A stretch of DNA of 62,209 bases from an uncultured Oscillospiraceae bacterium (lineage in GTDB: Bacteria; Bacillota; Clostridia; Oscillospirales; Oscillospiraceae). Every line of letters begins with the position of its first letter. Positions within the stretch are counted from its first letter, which is position 1. The stretch is taken from NCBI GenBank assembly GCA_947626495.1, contig CANQSJ010000011.1, positions 1-62,209 of the forward strand, written 5' to 3'. Positions 2,571-35,651 of this stretch are shown piece by piece. The position numbers and the translations under genes were made by a program. The notes under the pieces are model-generated. The model was given only the letters and a program-made list of their open reading frames with translations. It searched no databases and had not been told where the DNA came from.

Positions 2571-5500
2571 CTATTTGACCACCACGTTCTGCTCTCCCAG
2601 CAGCTCTTGCAGCTCCCGGATGAGGGCGTCGTGGATCACGCACTTGGCGCCCAGGCGCTTTTTCGTATCGGTGAAATAGACCACCAGGGACTCTGTGCCC
2701 GGGAACATGGTCAGCAGCAGCTCGATCCGGTGAAAGAGGGGGTCGTCCCGGCCGGGCAGCCGCACCCACAGGGTTTTCCCCGCCGGCGCGCCCCGGTCCG
2801 GAGTCTGGGGCGGGGGTGTCTGCTGGCCGGCGTAGCCGCCGTCCCGGGCGGCGTTTTTGATGGAGGCGACGGCGCTGTCCGTCAGCCCCTCCAGGGGATA
2901 GACCGCGTCCAGCATCAGCTGGGGGTCCTTCTCGTCCCGGACGGAGATGCGCCCGGCGCAGCAGACCGCCGTGCCCTCCGTCAGATAGCTGCCGCCCTGG
3001 TCCAGGGCCCGCTGGAAGGCGATGAGCTCCATGGAGCCGGAGTCGTCCTCCAGCGTGGCGGTGCACATGAGGGTGTTGTTTTTGGTGGTACGGGTCCGGG
3101 CGGCGGACACGATGCCCGCCAGGATGACGCGCTGGCCGTCCCGGAACCGGCCGGGGCCCTCCTCGCCGGCGAAGTCCTCCAGGATGGCGCCCATGGAGGC
3201 GGCCCCCAGCTTTTCCACGGTGTCCCGGTAGCTGTGCATGGGGTGGCCGGTGAGATACAGCCCCGTGGTCTGCCGCTCCATCTCCATCTTCTCCATGGGG
3301 GTGAACTCCTCCACGTCCGGCAGCTCCAGGGTGGAGACGGGCTCGTCCTCGTCCATGGAGAACAGGTCGAACTGCCCGGCCAGATTCTTCCGCCCGGCGG
3401 AGCTGACCCCGTCCAGGACCTTGTCCAGCACCTGCAGCAGCGCCTTGCGCTTATAGCCCAGGGAGTCGAAGGCCCCCGCCTGGATCAGGCTCTCCACCGG
3501 CCGGCGGTTCAGCTCCTTGCCGTACATCCGCCGGCAGAACTCGTCGAAGGCCGCGAAGGGGCCGGACTCGGCCCGCTCCGCCATCAGCTGGTGGACGAAT
3601 CCCTGGCCCACGCCCTTCACCGCCGCCAGGCCGAAACGGATGTTCCCGCCGGCCACGGTGAAGTCCGCGTCGGACTCGTTCACGTCCGGGGGCAGCAGCT
3701 CGATGCCCAGCTTCCGGCACTCGCCGATGTACTCCGCCACCTTGCCGGCGCTGTCCAGCACGCTGGTGAGCAGCGCCGCCATATATTCCCGGGGCCAGTG
3801 GCACTTCATCCACGCCGTGCGGTAGGCCACCACGGCGTAGCACACCGCGTGGGCCTTGTTGAAGGCGTAGGAGGCGAAGTCCAGGATCTCGTCGTAGATG
3901 CTGTTGGCCACGTCCTCGCTGACGCCGTTGGCGAGACAGCCGGGGATGTTCCGCTCCGCGTCGCCGTAGACGAAGGCCTTGCGCTCGGCGTCGATGACCG
4001 CGTGCTTTTTCTTGGACATGGCCCGGCGGATCATGTCCGCCTGGCCCAGGGAGAAGCCCGCCAGGCGCTGGAAGATGCTGATGACCTGCTCCTGGTAGAC
4101 GATGCAGCCGTAGGTCACGTCCAGGATGGGCCGCAGCAGCTCGTGCTTGTAGGTCACCCGCTCGGGATGGGCGGCGCACTCCAGAAACCGGGGGATGGAC
4201 TCCATGGGGCCGGGCCGGTACAGGGCGATGACGGCGGTGATGTCCTCGATGGACTTGGGCCGCAGCCCCACGCACACGCCGGTCATGCCCACGGATTCCA
4301 GCTGGAACACCCCGCTGGTCTTGCCGTCGGTGAGCATCTGGAAGGTCTCCGGGTCGTCCTCCGGGACCTTGTCCACCCGGAAGTCCGGCTCCACCCGGCG
4401 CACCAGCTCCTCCGCGTCCTTCAGTACCGTCAGGTTCCGCAGGCCCAGAAAGTCCATCTTCAGCAGGCCCAGCTGCTCCAGGGTCACCATGTCGAACTGG
4501 CAGACGATGGACTCGTCGTTCCGGGCCAGGGGCACATAGTCGGTGAGGGGCCTGGCGGTGATGACCACGCCGGCGGCGTGGGTGGAGGCGTGACGGGGCA
4601 TGCCCTCCAGGGCCCGGGCCGTGTCCACCAGGTCGTGGATCTTCTCGTCGGCGTCGTACATCTCCTTCAGGGGCTTGGAAAGGCGCAGCGCCTCGTCCAG
4701 GGTCATGCCCAGGGAGAAGGGGACGTTTTTTGCCACCGCGTCCGTCTCGGCGTAGCCCACGCCCAGCACCCGGCCCACGTCCCGGATGGCCGCCCGGGCG
4801 GCCATGGTGCCGAAGGTGACGATCTGGGCCACGTGGTCCGCGCCGTACTTGCGGGACACGTAGTCGATCACCTCGCCCCGGCGGCGGACGCAGAAGTCCA
4901 TGTCGATGTCCGGCATGGTGACCCGCTCGGGGTTCAGAAACCGCTCGAAGAAGAGCTTGTACTTGATGGGGTCCACGTCGGTGATGTGCAGGGTGTAGCT
5001 GACGATGGACCCGGCGCCGGAGCCGCGCCCCGGCCCCACCGGGATGTCGTGGCCCTTGGCGAAGGCGATGAAGTCCCAGACGATGAGGAAGTAGTCCACG
5101 AACCCCATCTGGTTTATCACGCCCAGCTCGTAGTCCAGCCGGTCGGCCAGGTCCTTCCCGTAGCCGGGATAGCGCTCCGCCAGGCCCTGATAACAAAGCT
5201 TTTTCAGATAGGCGAAGCTGTCCGTCTCCCCCTCCGGCAGCTGGAATTGAGGCAGGTGATAGTGGCCGAACTCGAAGTCGAAATCGCACATTTCGGCGAT
5301 CTTCACCGTGTTGTCATAAGCCTCGGGGAAGTCGGGGAACAGCGCGCGCATCTCCTCCTCGGATTTGAGGTACAGCTCCGTGCTCTCAAACTTCATCCGG
5401 TCCGGGTCGTCCACGGTCTTGCCCGTCTGCACGCACATGAGCACGTCCTGGATGTGGGCGTCCTCCCGGCGCAGATAGTGGGCGTCGTTGGTGACCGCCA

Positions 5501-32132: not shown

Positions 32133-32783
32133 TTACAAAATGATATTCCCCGCCCGGAGCCAGCGGATATACTCCGCCTCCACGTCCCGGGACGACAGGC
32201 TCCCGGCCAGATAGCCCTTCATCAGCCGGTCGAACAGCCGCACGTACTCGCTGATGGCCCCGGCCACGTCGGCGCTGGTGTAGTCCCGGCTGCCCGGCAG
32301 GGCGATGGAGCGGGTGAAGCGGCCCGGATACAGGGCGTATTCCACCGGCAGGGGGTGATAGGCCGCGATGAGCCCGTCCTCCACCTGCTTCCACAGGCGG
32401 AAGAACTGCCCCATGGCGTCCAGAAGGTCCTGGGACTGGGTGCGGAACACCACGCTCAGCTCCCCCAGGGAGTCCTCCCTGTCCCGGTACAGCTCCACGG
32501 AGTACTTCACCGTGGGCCGGTAGCGGTACTGGAGGCTGGATTTCAGACTCATGGTCATGGCGTTGGGGGCCACGAAGGGCACCAGGTCCTGGTCCGTGCC
32601 CAGCAGCTCGCTGATCTGCCGGAAGATGTCCTGCACCCGGCGCTCCGGGGTCACAAGATCGGTGTACTCGGCCAGGATCTGATTGACCAGAGCGGAGCGG
32701 TTGGTGCCCATCCGGTGGGCCAGGGCGTCCACCGCCCGGACCACGTCGTCGGAGAGCATCAGGCTGTACAGGGTCTTTTTCAT
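32133..32783 (-). CDS. Ribbon-helix-helix N-terminal protein, unknown function
   Basis: A 216-residue protein starting MKKTLYSLMLSDDVVRAVDA. The first 50 residues look like a ribbon-helix-helix DNA-binding domain (basic strand, then VVRAVDALAHRMGTNRSALV). The remaining 165 residues are not recognised but contain repeated aromatic/charged segments (YRPTVKYSVELYRDREDSLG). It is not a toxin-antitoxin partner here, as no second small gene is coupled. ATG 32783 was chosen over 32804 because GAGGTGA precedes it closely. A promoter with TTGACA-17-TAACAT precedes it, and a dyad between the boxes may be its own operator. clpB follows across the R1 repeat. Confidence 0.7.
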   Translation of the reverse strand: MKKTLYSLMLSDDVVRAVDALAHRMGTNRSALVNQILAEYTDLVTPERRVQDIFRQISELLGTDQDLVPFVAPNAMTMSLKSSLQYRYRPTVKYSVELYRDREDSLGELSVVFRTQSQDLLDAMGQFFRLWKQVEDGLIAAYHPLPVEYALYPGRFTRSIALPGSRDYTSADVAGAISEYVRLFDRLMKGYLAGSLSSRDVEAEYIRWLRAGNIIL

Positions 32784-32802
32784 ATCTCTCACCTCGCAAA
32801 TC

Positions 32803-32831
32803 ATGTTACATCAGTTCATTAACTTTGTCAA
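32803..32831 (-). promoter_or_regulatory. Predicted promoter of the RHH gene with internal dyad
   Basis: On the minus strand TTGACA (32831-32826), 17 bp, TAACAT (32808-32803). The spacer carries GTTA...TAAC (32806-32824), a possible autoregulatory operator; the arms are only 4 bp. Confidence 0.7.
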
Positions 32832-32869
32832 GCGATTTATATAAATTTAAAAAATATTTTTCCTTTGGC

Positions 32870-32898
32870 TTGTGCTTTCCCGCCGCCCGTGATACACT
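32870..32898 (+). promoter_or_regulatory. Predicted promoter of the ABC-F leader
   Basis: TTGTGC (32870-32875), 17 bp, TACACT (32893-32898) with TGA just before it (extended -10). The -35 is poor, so the extended -10 is the main support. Transcription would start about 32905. Confidence 0.6.
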
Positions 32899-32929
32899 GG
32901 ATCCAACAAAACAGATCTGAGGTGAAAAG

Positions 32930-32950
32930 ATGGACTCTGCTTCCTGCTGA
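32930..32950 (+). CDS. Six-codon leader peptide (uORF) upstream of the ABC-F gene
   Basis: ATG GAC TCT GCT TCC TGC TGA encodes MDSASC. GAGGTG lies 5 nt upstream, a better site than that of many full genes here. The stop is 7 nt before a large hairpin (32958-33010). The ABC-F start is 180 nt further on. Short uORFs at this place are known for several antibiotic-responsive ABC-F genes, where a drug-stalled ribosome changes leader folding. Expression of this peptide is inferred. Confidence 0.6.
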   Translation: MDSASC

Positions 32951-32957
32951 CAGCTTT

Positions 32958-33113
32958 GGCATGACGGGAACAACGCATCCCGGCGGCGCGAGCCGCCCTG
33001 TCGTCATGCCGGCATCGCGGGAGCGGCCATTCTCTTCACCGGCTTATCGGCATGGCGACGGCCATGTCCTCCGTCGGCTGTGGGAGCGCTTCCCGCGGCC
33101 GATTCTGTATTTT
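32958..33113 (+). promoter_or_regulatory. Structured leader with terminator-like hairpin (putative attenuator)
   Basis: Hairpin 1 pairs GGCATGACG (32958-32966) with CGTCATGCC (33002-33010) and encloses GGCGGC-GCGA-GCCGCC. The last hairpin, 33075-33101, is a 12-bp stem (some G-U) with loop CGC, followed by ATTCTGTATTTT (33102-33113), resembling a terminator. CGCGGGAG (33016-33023) can pair with TTCCCGCG (33090-33097), which would break that stem. The AAGGAGG of the ABC-F gene follows at once. The switching model is inference. Confidence 0.6.
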
Positions 33114-33129
33114 AAGGAGGGCATGACCT

Positions 33130-34617
33130 ATGTCGCTGATCGATGTTTCCAACCTGTCCTTCGCCTACGGCGGGGGCTATGATTATATTTTCAAGGACGC
33201 GAGCTTCCAGATCGACACGGACTGGCGCCTGGGCTTCACCGGCCGCAACGGCCGGGGCAAGACCACCTTTTTGAAGCTGCTCATGGGCGAGTACGACTAC
33301 CAGGGGACCATCTCCGCGTCCGTGGATTTTGAGTACTTCCCCTATCCCGTGCCGGACATGGACGCGGACACCGCCGACGTGCTGGGGGCGGTCTGTGCGG
33401 ACGCGCCGGCGTGGAAGCTCCGGCGGGAGCTGGGAAAGCTGGGGGTGGACGAGGGCGTGCTGTACCGCCCCTTTGCCACCCTGTCCAACGGGGAGCGGAC
33501 CAAGGCGCTGCTGGCGGCGCTGTTTTTGCGGGAGAACGCCTTTCTGCTCATCGACGAGCCCACCAACCACCTGGACATGCGGGGCCGCGGACTGGTGAGC
33601 GACTATTTGCGCCAGAAAAAGGGCTTCATCCTGGTCAGCCACGACCGGGCGTTTCTGGACGGGTGCGTGGACCATATTCTGTCCATCAACCGGGCGGATA
33701 TCCAGGTGTGCCGGGGGGACTTCTCCACCTGGTGGGAGAATAAGCAGCGCCAGGATGACTTCGAGCTGGCGGAGAACGAGCGGCTGAAGAAGGAGGTCAA
33801 ACGTCTGAAGACCGCCGCCCGCCAGAAGGAGGACTGGTCGAACACGGCGGAGCGGCGCAAGACCGGCGTGGATCGGACCAAAGTGGACAATATCAAGGGC
33901 TGGGCACCGCTGCAGGGGGCGAAAGCCAAAAAGCAAATGAGCCGAGCCAAGGCCATTGAGACCCGGCGGGAGCGGGCCGTGGAGGAGAAGTCGAAGCTTT
34001 TGAAGAATATCGAGACGGCGGAGGAGCTGAAGCTGGACCAGCCGGTATACCGCAGTCCCCGGCTGGCGTATCTGAAGGACGTGGCGGTGGATTACGGGGA
34101 CGGCCCGGTGTGCGAGCCGGTGTCCTTCACCCTGGAGCGGGGGGACCGGGTGGCGCTGCTGGGGCCCAACGGGGCGGGAAAGAGCAGTATTTTGAAGCTC
34201 GTCTGCGGGGAGGATATCCCCCATACGGGGGTGTTCGAGCCGGGCGGCGGCCTGGTCATATCATACGTGCCCCAGGACACGGCGGGACTGGCCGGCGGTC
34301 TGACCGATTACGCCGAGAGGTGCGGCGTGGACGTGAGCCTGTTTCTCGCCATTCTGCGCAAGCTGGACTTCGAGCGCGGCCAGTTTGAAAAGGACATGGC
34401 CTCCTACTCCGCCGGGCAGAAGAAAAAGGTCCTCCTGGCCCGGAGCCTGTGCCAGCGGGCCCATCTGCTGGTGTGGGACGAGCCCCTCAATTACATCGAC
34501 CTCATCAGCCGCATGCAGATCGAGGAGCTGCTGCTGCGGGCGAAGCCCACGCTCCTGGTAGTGGAGCACGACCGGGCTTTCTGCGAGCATATCGCCACCA
34601 AGACGGTGGAGATATAA
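33130..34617 (+). CDS. ABC-F ribosomal protection protein, Lsa/CplR-like
   Basis: A 495-residue soluble protein with two ABC domains and no membrane helix. The first has GRNGRGKTT and LSNGERTK with DEPTNHLDM; the second has GPNGAGKSS and YSAGQKKK with WDEPLNYID. Between them is a Lys/Glu-rich arm with the DFSTWWENKQRQDDFELAEN motif of Lsa-type proteins and an extended interdomain linker. Relatives (Lsa, CplR) bind the ribosomal E site and dislodge lincosamides, streptogramin A and pleuromutilins. The second signature and Walker B are slightly altered from consensus (NYID instead of NHLD), as in Lsa. A strong terminator follows. Resistance itself is inferred, not shown. Confidence 0.88.
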   Translation: MSLIDVSNLSFAYGGGYDYIFKDASFQIDTDWRLGFTGRNGRGKTTFLKLLMGEYDYQGTISASVDFEYFPYPVPDMDADTADVLGAVCADAPAWKLRRELGKLGVDEGVLYRPFATLSNGERTKALLAALFLRENAFLLIDEPTNHLDMRGRGLVSDYLRQKKGFILVSHDRAFLDGCVDHILSINRADIQVCRGDFSTWWENKQRQDDFELAENERLKKEVKRLKTAARQKEDWSNTAERRKTGVDRTKVDNIKGWAPLQGAKAKKQMSRAKAIETRRERAVEEKSKLLKNIETAEELKLDQPVYRSPRLAYLKDVAVDYGDGPVCEPVSFTLERGDRVALLGPNGAGKSSILKLVCGEDIPHTGVFEPGGGLVISYVPQDTAGLAGGLTDYAERCGVDVSLFLAILRKLDFERGQFEKDMASYSAGQKKKVLLARSLCQRAHLLVWDEPLNYIDLISRMQIEELLLRAKPTLLVVEHDRAFCEHIATKTVEI

Positions 34618-34618
34618 A

Positions 34619-34657
34619 AACGCCCCCGGGAGACATCTCCCGGGGCGTTCTTTTTTT
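34619..34657 (+). terminator. Terminator after the ABC-F gene
   Basis: A long GC stem AACGCCCCCGGGAGA/TCTCCCGGGGCGTT (with a bulge) and loop are followed by CTTTTTTTG. It lies between the ABC-F stop and the convergent gene ending at 34659. Confidence 0.9.
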
Positions 34658-34658
34658 G

Positions 34659-35651
34659 TCAGTCCAGGCCCCGCTCCTTTTTCAGGATGCGGATGTCGCT
34701 GCCCACGAAGGCGAGCACCTGGTAATCCCCCTCCAGCCGGCTCATCAGCTGGGGGGTATAGAGCTTGGCCATCTGGGCGGCGGACAGGTTGGTGGTGATG
34801 ATCGTGCGCTTCTGGCCGGTCAGCCGCCGGTTCACCAGGTCGTAAAGGGCGGAGCGGGTGAAGTCCGTCACCATCTCCGTGCCCAGATCGTCCAGAATGA
34901 GCAGATCGCACTGGCGCATCCGCCGGGCCAGCTCCACGGCCCCGGCGATATCCGCGCTCTCCCGGCGGAAGTGGTCGGCCTCCATGGCCCGGGCCGCGTC
35001 CACCGCCGTCTCATACACCACGGAGTAGCCCTGCCGGGCCACCTCCCGGGCGATGCAGGCGGCCAAAAACGTCTTGCCCAGGCCGGTGCCGCCCCGGAAC
35101 AGCAGGTCCATCCGGCTCTTGCCGAAGTGCAGGGCGTAGTCGTAGCAGATGCCGAACACCGTCTCCATCTGGGTCCGGGGGGCCACGCCGGAGACCGGGT
35201 CGGGCCGCTCGTCGTACAGGCCCAGATCGAAGGTGCCGAAGCTCTCGCTGCCCAGCTTCAAAAGGGCGGACAGGTCCTGGGCCTGGGCCTGGTCGTAGAG
35301 CTTTTTCAGACAGGAGCACATCCGCCCCTGGACATAGCCGGTGTCCCGGCACTTGGGGCAGTCCCAGGCCCCGTCCAGATACTCCATGGGCCAGCCGTGC
35401 TCCACCAGCAGCTCCGCCCGCCGGGCCTGCAGCTCCAGACTCTCCCGGCGGAAGCCGTCCATGGCGGCGTCCCCGCCGGACATGGCCGCGGCCGCGGCCT
35501 GGCCTACCAGCGCGGCGATGCGCCGGTCCAGCTGCCGTATCTCCGGCACCCGGGCGTAGACCTCCTCGTGGCGGAGGCGGTCCGTCTGCACGGCCCGGCG
35601 GCGGATATTCTCTTTTTCCTCTCTGGCACGGGCCAGCAGTCTGCCGTCCAT
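34659..35651 (-). CDS. DnaC/DnaI-like helicase loader ATPase
   Basis: A 330-residue AAA+ protein. An N-terminal helical region is followed by a zinc-type cluster CPKCRDTGYVQGRMCSCL (about 117-134), then Walker A FRGGTGLGKTFLAA (about 187) and Walker B LLILDDLGTE, and a sensor-1-like IITTNLS. This matches the DnaC/DnaI family that loads the replicative helicase. It follows the dnaD-like gene by 13 nt with an AGAGGGGA site, so the two are likely a primosomal pair. Confidence 0.9.
   Translation of the reverse strand: MDGRLLARAREEKENIRRRAVQTDRLRHEEVYARVPEIRQLDRRIAALVGQAAAAAMSGGDAAMDGFRRESLELQARRAELLVEHGWPMEYLDGAWDCPKCRDTGYVQGRMCSCLKKLYDQAQAQDLSALLKLGSESFGTFDLGLYDERPDPVSGVAPRTQMETVFGICYDYALHFGKSRMDLLFRGGTGLGKTFLAACIAREVARQGYSVVYETAVDAARAMEADHFRRESADIAGAVELARRMRQCDLLILDDLGTEMVTDFTRSALYDLVNRRLTGQKRTIITTNLSAAQMAKLYTPQLMSRLEGDYQVLAFVGSDIRILKKERGLD

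Follow-up and report, generated by a model that had tools for sequence, protein, structure and literature searches.

The 225-nt leader of an Lsa-like ABC-F gene in an uncultured Oscillospiraceae bacterium probably works as an antibiotic-sensing transcription attenuator. A drug would arrest a ribosome on the first codon of a short upstream open reading frame (uORF), which would free a segment, R2, to pair with the 3' arm of a terminator and let RNA polymerase read into the gene. The basis for this reading lies in the sequence and in its comparison among relatives: a conserved uORF and terminator-like hairpin, a segment R2 that covaries with both of its alternative partners (R1 and R4), the distance of R1 from the start codon, and a complement to the ABC-F Shine-Dalgarno (SD) sequence. 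A uORF-controlled attenuator with mutually exclusive pairings had been proposed in a first-pass annotation of this DNA, and the conserved uORF, the terminator-like hairpin, and the covarying R2 argue for it.

RESULTS

Layout of the leader and identity of the gene

All positions refer to the window, i.e., the whole stretch of 62,209 nucleotides that was analyzed. The parts of the leader and the gene behind it are as follows.

32870 to 32898 (+), predicted promoter: TTGTGC, 17 nt, TACACT, with TGA before TACACT (extended -10)
32919 to 32925 (+), uORF SD GAGGTGA, invariant in the 18 leaders of alignment A1
32921 to 33040 (+), predicted anti-antiterminator stem P1, in which the uORF SD, AUG, and R1 pair with 33015 to 33040, enclosing the hairpins at 32958 to 33010
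32930 to 32950 (+), uORF ATGGACTCTGCTTCCTGCTGA, six codons, MDSASC; a six-codon ORF here in 19/19 genus leaders
32940 to 32947 (+), segment R1, CTTCCTGC, beginning at +10 from the A of the AUG
33016 to 33024 (+), segment R2, CGCGGGAGC, partner of R1 in the off state and proposed partner of R4 in the on state
33049 to 33068 (+), hairpin P3 (GGCATGG...CCATGTC), 95.1% of cells paired
33063 to 33072 (+), anti-SD CATGTCCTCC, a 10-base complement of GGAGGGCATG at 33116 to 33125
33073 to 33113 (+), intrinsic-terminator-like hairpin and T-rich tail, with arms R3 (33073 to 33085) and R4 (33091 to 33103)
33116 to 33125 (+), ABC-F SD (GGAGG) and the following GGCATG
33130 to 34617 (+), Lsa-like ABC-F ribosomal protection protein, 495 amino acids, by profile matches

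The downstream gene is an ARE-type ABC-F gene by profile match, with a predicted role in resistance. Its product passes the general ribosomal-protection ABC-F model NF000355 (449.4 bits, cutoff 380), is matched by Pfam ABC_tran in two stretches, and matches the Lsa model NF000167 over its full length (E of 3.7e-205) with 682.6 bits, under the cutoff of 750; by these scores the gene is Lsa-like and is not filed as Lsa proper. The label "Lsa/CplR-like" given to it earlier is right in its first half, while the CplR model NF043038 gives only 179.8 bits, far under its cutoff of 780. The intergenic region that holds the leader promoter is shared with a divergent gene (32133 to 32804, minus strand) for a protein of 223 amino acids, whose N-terminal ribbon-helix-helix (CopG family) match is barely over the cutoff (21.9 versus 20.5 bits). 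Directly past the ABC-F stop codon lies a strong terminator-like hairpin (34618 to 34660) with seven T in an unbroken run, unlike the leader hairpin, whose T tract is interrupted.

The extended -10 element is TGATACACT at 32890 to 32898, from which we infer a transcription start near 32905. A -10 resembling TG-N-TAyAyT is retained across the genus alignment (L003 is misaligned there), although a consensus promoter scan did not pick up the window promoter, whose -35 is poor. Both this predicted promoter and the six-codon MDSASC ORF with its strong ribosome site are present as first described, and the ORF is kept in the genus. The leader folds far better than chance (z of -5.5, with 0/200 shuffles as good), and P1 is present in both the minimum-free-energy and the centroid fold. 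A large hairpin had been placed 7 nt past the uORF stop; it does begin at 32958, but the structure also takes in the uORF, because the uORF SD, AUG, and coding sequence pair with 33015 to 33040 in the minimum-energy fold.

The terminator-like hairpin (33073 to 33103) and its tail, TCTGTATTTT at 33104 to 33113, are likewise where they had been reported, with 13 bp by folding or 14 by pattern scan instead of 12 and with a T tract that is interrupted, having 7 T in 12 nt. Taken by itself, the terminator pattern is no better than chance (one found, versus 0.7 ± 0.8 in shuffles); the hairpin is backed by conservation, with 97.9% of cells paired in 18 leaders. As also predicted in the first-pass annotation, CGCGGGAG (33016 to 33023) can pair with TTCCCGCG (33090 to 33097), by seven Watson-Crick pairs and one G-U pair. 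The motif GGCATG occurs three times in the leader, at 32958 (inner hairpin), 33049 (P3), and 33120 (after the ABC-F ribosome site), with complements at 33005 (CATGCC) and 33063 (CATGTCC), so that several exchanges of arms are possible.

The leader is conserved within the genus

The uORF pattern was found once per genome in 19/35 genomes of the genus, and these are the same 19 that hold the N terminus of the ABC-F protein; genome G014 has only a 52-residue end fragment of it. The ribosome site, the uORF, the 5' structure, the terminator-like hairpin, and the ABC-F ribosome site are kept in the 19. Conservation of the uORF and hairpins in relatives had been named as the test by which the switch could be refuted, and their retention leaves this reading unrefuted. 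All 19 uORFs have six codons, with AUG and in-frame stop retained, and encode MISASC (8, including L003), MDSASC (3), MISAAC (3), and, once each, MINASC, MINTSC, MISASF, MISSSC, and MINAAC.

For comparison of structures, we used an alignment (A1) of 18 genus leaders, excluding L003 because of a 188-nt insertion. The off structure is paired in 87.1% of A1 cells, versus 40 to 57% when it is shifted along by one to three columns. The structure covaries modestly (score of 0.083 versus 0.075 in shuffles, 5/500 as high); pairs altered on both sides number 7 versus 4.5 (15/500 shuffles), and further pair types are no more frequent than in shuffles (389/500 as high). A1 offers little information on the R1:R2 helix, since R2 varies in length and is misplaced by MAFFT, and it is there that the low cells fall; RNAalifold on A1 picked neither R1:R2 nor P3 and kept only the SD part of the uORF stem. 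P3 carries a GC-to-AU change on both sides in 3/18 leaders. By eye, a longer R4 (TCTCCCG) and a longer R2 (extra G) occur together in eight leaders and neither occurs in the other ten, perhaps as the result of one event. A T-rich tail (6 to 10 T in 12 nt) stands behind the hairpin in the 18 leaders examined.

The insertion in L003 (positions 3166 to 3353, genome G032) is a highly structured 188-nt repeat (-101.4 kcal/mol) directly past the uORF stop. G032 holds seven full-length copies, 88 to 100% identical to the query, and one partial copy, and the window's own genome holds one (G000:C1:149869-150055); three loci tried (L255 to L257) gave no Rfam match at gathering score.

Short uORFs and terminator-like hairpins precede many Lsa-like genes across Bacillota

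We collected 171 regions upstream of Lsa-like genes, the genus included, of which 162 remained after those shorter than 240 nt and identical ones were dropped. The sources comprised 109 family matches (without G095, G226, G280, and G370, which have no usable N terminus, and G222) and 36 phylum matches (without six lacking a locus: G515, G592, G604, G616, G669, and G691). Of 80 loci, we used only the 18 whose best tblastn piece over the first 300 residues reached at least 43% identity (L051 to L067 and L069; L050 lies on the same contig as L007).

An ATG ORF of 2 to 8 codons with a strong ribosome site between -330 and -150 was present in 113/162 distinct leaders, versus a mean of 5.2 in shuffles (range of 0 to 9 in 20 rounds). 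The remaining 49/162 have no uORF by this criterion; L003 counts among them because its insertion pushes the uORF beyond the scanned range. The commonest peptides are MRK (18) and MISASC (7), followed by a long list in which many end in SC or SCK. Endings in YLA, LIA, FLA, or YPA occur in L060, L061, L165, L166, L172, L176, and L191, and in four of these leaders (L166, L172, L176, and L191) the best pairing segment stands at +9 rather than +10. A terminator-like hairpin follows in 99/113 uORF leaders, by a search that demanded T-rich tails; the other 14, with no usable terminator or too little space, were dropped wherever a terminator was needed.

R2 covaries with two alternative partners

Four segments of the leader are related in pairs. 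R1 lies in the uORF and is similar to the 3' terminator arm, R4; R2 lies on the 3' side within the first stem and is similar to the 5' terminator arm, R3. The R1:R2 duplex is more stable than in shuffles, with a mean of -34.0 kcal/mol versus -24.0 and at most 3/60 shuffles as good in 77/99 leaders. For R2:R4, the shuffle test on duplex energy gives a weak result (32/99 leaders; mean of -16.3 versus -13.8), and the four-segment motif in its strict form was found in 11/99 leaders, or in 28/99 in a form relaxed after that result had been seen.

We counted covariation over clusters at 75% identity. The antiterminator pairing proposed earlier, R2:R4, is borne out in relatives: among 152 variable positions in 38 clusters, 136 are Watson-Crick, 10 G-U, and 6 mismatched, whereas a re-dealt control gave 94.6 ± 4.9 Watson-Crick pairs and never reached 136 in 10,000, a significance that such shuffles overstate because the clusters share descent that is only partly removed. 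Position 5 alone is G-C in 21 clusters, A-T in 16, and A-C in 1 (Fisher, 7.6e-10). Watson-Crick pairs make up 107/128 positions for R1:R2 (32 clusters) and 77/112 for R3:R4 (28 clusters). At the 14 positions where R1 and R4 differ, R2 is Watson-Crick complementary to R4 alone at 9, to R1 alone at 4, and to neither at 1. A pairing of R1 with R3 was also considered; it has no significant per-position covariation (overall, 28/10,000 shuffles as high) and is not claimed.

A ribosome on the start codon is predicted to free R2

We folded 99 leaders at equilibrium with a ribosome mask from -15 to +15 around the AUG. Among the 84/99 leaders having an R2, pairing between R2 and the uORF falls under this mask from a mean of 0.89 to 0.08. 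A terminator decrease of more than 0.2 is seen in 20/99 leaders, versus 0/99 under a control mask; among the 20 are 5/18 genus leaders (L006, L007, L013, L015, and L017). In the other 79/99 there is no such drop, and in one of them the terminator rises by more than 0.2.

In the window leader, the mask frees R2 (from 1.0 to 0.01), but the terminator barely moves (from 0.94 to 0.92) and R2:R4 reaches only ∼0.02; a ribosome on the uORF stop codon likewise fails to switch the terminator at equilibrium. The comparison of stalled and unstalled folds suggested in the first-pass annotation was run on this leader with the result that the terminator did not switch, and since R2 is released while the terminator stays at 0.92, a window switch is not demonstrated at equilibrium. 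In addition, the terminator should form faster than R2:R4, because R3 adjoins R4. Kinetics, pausing, or a larger ribosome footprint would have to help the window switch, which is the main weakness of the model.

The masked folds offer two alternative pairings: in one, the ACAGC present at the uORF stop would bind GCTGT of the terminator arm, and in the other, an exchange would take place between the inner hairpin and P3. ACAGC is missing from 4/19 genus leaders (L005 to L007 and L019) and is displaced by the insertion in L003.

The mechanism that we propose would thus run as follows. In the off state, R1 and R2 are predicted by folding to be paired and the terminator to be formed. A drug would arrest the ribosome at the AUG of the six-codon uORF, rather than at a peptide motif, and the arrested ribosome would keep the uORF RNA off R2, whose release is what the masked folds predict. 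Freed R2 would then pair with R4, presumably winning it in time, and RNA polymerase would pass the putative terminator into the ABC-F gene. By analogy with vmlR and cplR, the inducers would be lincosamides, pleuromutilins, and streptogramin A. In a second layer, predicted by folding, the read-through RNA would hide the ABC-F ribosome site.

Transcriptional versus translational control

The second layer concerns the pairing of GGAGGGCATG (33116 to 33125) with CATGTCCTCC (33063 to 33072), which is kept in 99.4% of cells in 18 leaders and shows no covariation beyond shuffles (104/500 as high). RNAalifold, unprompted, chooses this anti-SD stem with the terminator at its tip. Because the 10-base complement is conserved and chosen in this way, read-through RNA could still mask the ABC-F ribosome site, a feature also reported in vmlR and cplR.

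Control might then be mainly translational, with the hairpin and the anti-SD hiding the ribosome site and little termination of transcription, an explanation that we consider unlikely. The perfect SD complement, its retention, and its choice by RNAalifold are what it would predict; it would also suit the interrupted T tract of the window leader, and a cplR mutant in poly-U is reported to remain regulated (PMC10201436, in excerpt). It is harder to reconcile with the T-rich tails of the 18 genus leaders and with the terminator-like hairpin of 99/113 uORF leaders, and the R2:R4 covariation is explained by antitermination, while the anti-SD stem itself does not covary beyond shuffles. Both layers may operate together, as they do in vmlR.

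In some relatives the position of R1, rather than the peptide, is retained

Among the 81 leaders with uORFs of 5 to 8 codons, 48, of which 13 are from the genus, have the segment YYTCYYGC starting exactly at +10 from the AUG, and elsewhere from -40 to +80 it occurs only at +7 (2) and +9 (2); strict R1 is missing from 29/81. UORFs of 2 to 4 codons have the segment at +10, +11, or +12 in 7/32 leaders, always starting past the stop codon, where by our estimate roughly 0.04 would be expected by chance at ∼1 in 4,096 per position; one further short-uORF leader has it at +39. A looser YYYYYYGY lies near the AUG in 11/32 short-uORF leaders and is lacking there in 21/32. These counts may include some false uORF calls, and many of the leaders are not independent of one another.

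On a protein tree of the 63/113 uORF leaders whose locus held the ABC-F gene, the uORF length class changes 8 times, and well-supported branches force at least 3 of these changes; for example, L144 (MRNFSC) stands beside L131, L146, and L153 (MRN, MRK, and MRN). Together with the segments found past stop codons, these changes indicate that, in part of the set, the distance of R1 persists while its coding role comes and goes. This pattern agrees with arrest of the ribosome on the AUG, which has been reported in related leaders.

We weighed these data against a true arrest peptide, in which the drug-bound ribosome stalls at the Ser-Cys end through the nascent chain, as in erm-type leaders, and find this decidedly unlikely. 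The many relatives whose uORFs end in SC or SCK would fit it, and the vmlR uORF is not neutral in sequence, since MRK induces less than MIN, MDN, and MDK (the latter two at least equal to MIN; PMC9226507, in excerpt) and sequence identity is called crucial for efficient induction (PMC10201436, in excerpt). In the leaders studied here, short uORFs (MRK, MRN, MR, and MK) end before the segment, yet 7/32 retain it at +10 to +12. A chain of six residues, moreover, hardly reaches the exit tunnel. Within the genus, changes in codons 2 to 6 are mostly nonsynonymous (D/I, S/N, A/T/S, S/A, and C/F, versus two synonymous pairs) and codons 5 and 6 never vary at their third position, which is unlike what selected peptides usually show. 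The weight that the first-pass annotation had laid on the peptide is not sustained by these two observations, i.e., mostly nonsynonymous change in the genus and an RNA segment retained past an earlier stop in some relatives. As this segment, ∼10 bases past the AUG, stays despite the earlier stop, the peptide is probably unimportant, and it looks like a by-product.

A broader proposal, to which we give about even chances, is that a single undescribed RNA switch of a ruler type is common to the Lsa-like ABC-F genes of Bacillota. It would consist of an AUG followed 10 to 12 bases on by a mimic of the terminator 3' arm. The arrested ribosome on the AUG would be the only drug sensor and would cover the segment whatever its frame; Ser-Cys peptides would be the segment read in frame, and where a stop precedes the segment, the peptide would be lost and the switch would stay.

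Amino-acid attenuation, with the uORF sensing the charging of tRNA-Cys or tRNA-Ser, is very improbable: a Cys codon stands directly before the stop in 18/19 genus uORFs, but Phe replaces it in L014, other relatives either end in YLA or lack such codons, and the gene encodes a ribosome-protection factor and is not a Cys gene. We find it just as hard to credit a ligand-binding riboswitch with an incidental uORF, as the elaborate, highly conserved inner hairpins (32958 to 33010) might suggest, given the uORF AUG and in-frame stop in 19/19 genus leaders, the short uORFs in 113/162 distinct leaders, and the lack of any Rfam match in 32800 to 33200 at E up to 1 (or across the window at gathering score).

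DISCUSSION

By its predicted workings, the window leader is best placed with the known attenuators of the vmlR/cplR type, and its distance rule is the point worth testing. We compare it with published systems as described in excerpts of the papers cited. Like the leader of Bacillus subtilis vmlR, it has a short uORF (of three codons in vmlR) within a 5' anti-antiterminator stem, a terminator, an SD-hiding stem, and an ARE ABC-F gene downstream, and the pause hairpin of vmlR is counted among the likenesses (PMC9226507). For vmlR, this logic has experimental support, with a 30S toeprint on uORF(MIN) 16 nt from the A of its AUG (PMC9226507). The two leaders differ in ABC-F subfamily and in peptide, and past the first arm of its inner hairpin the window lacks TTNTTT, the NusG pause motif of vmlR. 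In 13/19 genus leaders this motif does occur, near -100 from the ABC-F start and within the 3' strand belonging to the first stem. The R1 distance rule is not described for vmlR in the excerpts of PMC9226507.

The logic of Clostridioides difficile cplR, whose uORF is MR[I/M] and whose inducers include retapamulin and lincomycin, is experimentally supported (PMC10201436). It shares with the window leader a 5' hairpin over the uORF, a terminator, and a hidden SD; the main SD lies within the terminator stem in cplR and in a predicted separate outer stem here, and the protein family differs, as the CplR score of the window protein shows. LsaA (uORF MAGN, versus MDSASC here) and Listeria lmo0919/vgaL have short uORFs and belong to the same or a neighboring ARE ABC-F group (PMC10201436). 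For are5sc and tiaA (ARE5), toeprinting has shown that lincosamides, a pleuromutilin, and a streptogramin A arrest the ribosome on the first codon of the uORF (PMC12421871); these leaders come from Streptomyces, with another subfamily and other uORFs. The excerpts of PMC9226507, PMC10201436, PMC10219788, PMC11109978, PMC12421871, PMC6429828, and PMC2965389 do not describe the Oscillospiraceae leader or the +10 segment, which is not proof of absence from print.

If the proposed attenuator is real, drug-inducible control of ribosome-protection genes extends to uncultured gut Oscillospiraceae, and the leaders collected here suggest that Lsa-like genes in Bacillota are commonly controlled in this way. 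This bears on the question in the field of why uORF sequences are conserved even though lincosamides and pleuromutilins arrest ribosomes with little preference for context: the comparison suggests that what is conserved is RNA pairing by a segment set at a constant distance from the AUG, and not a peptide.
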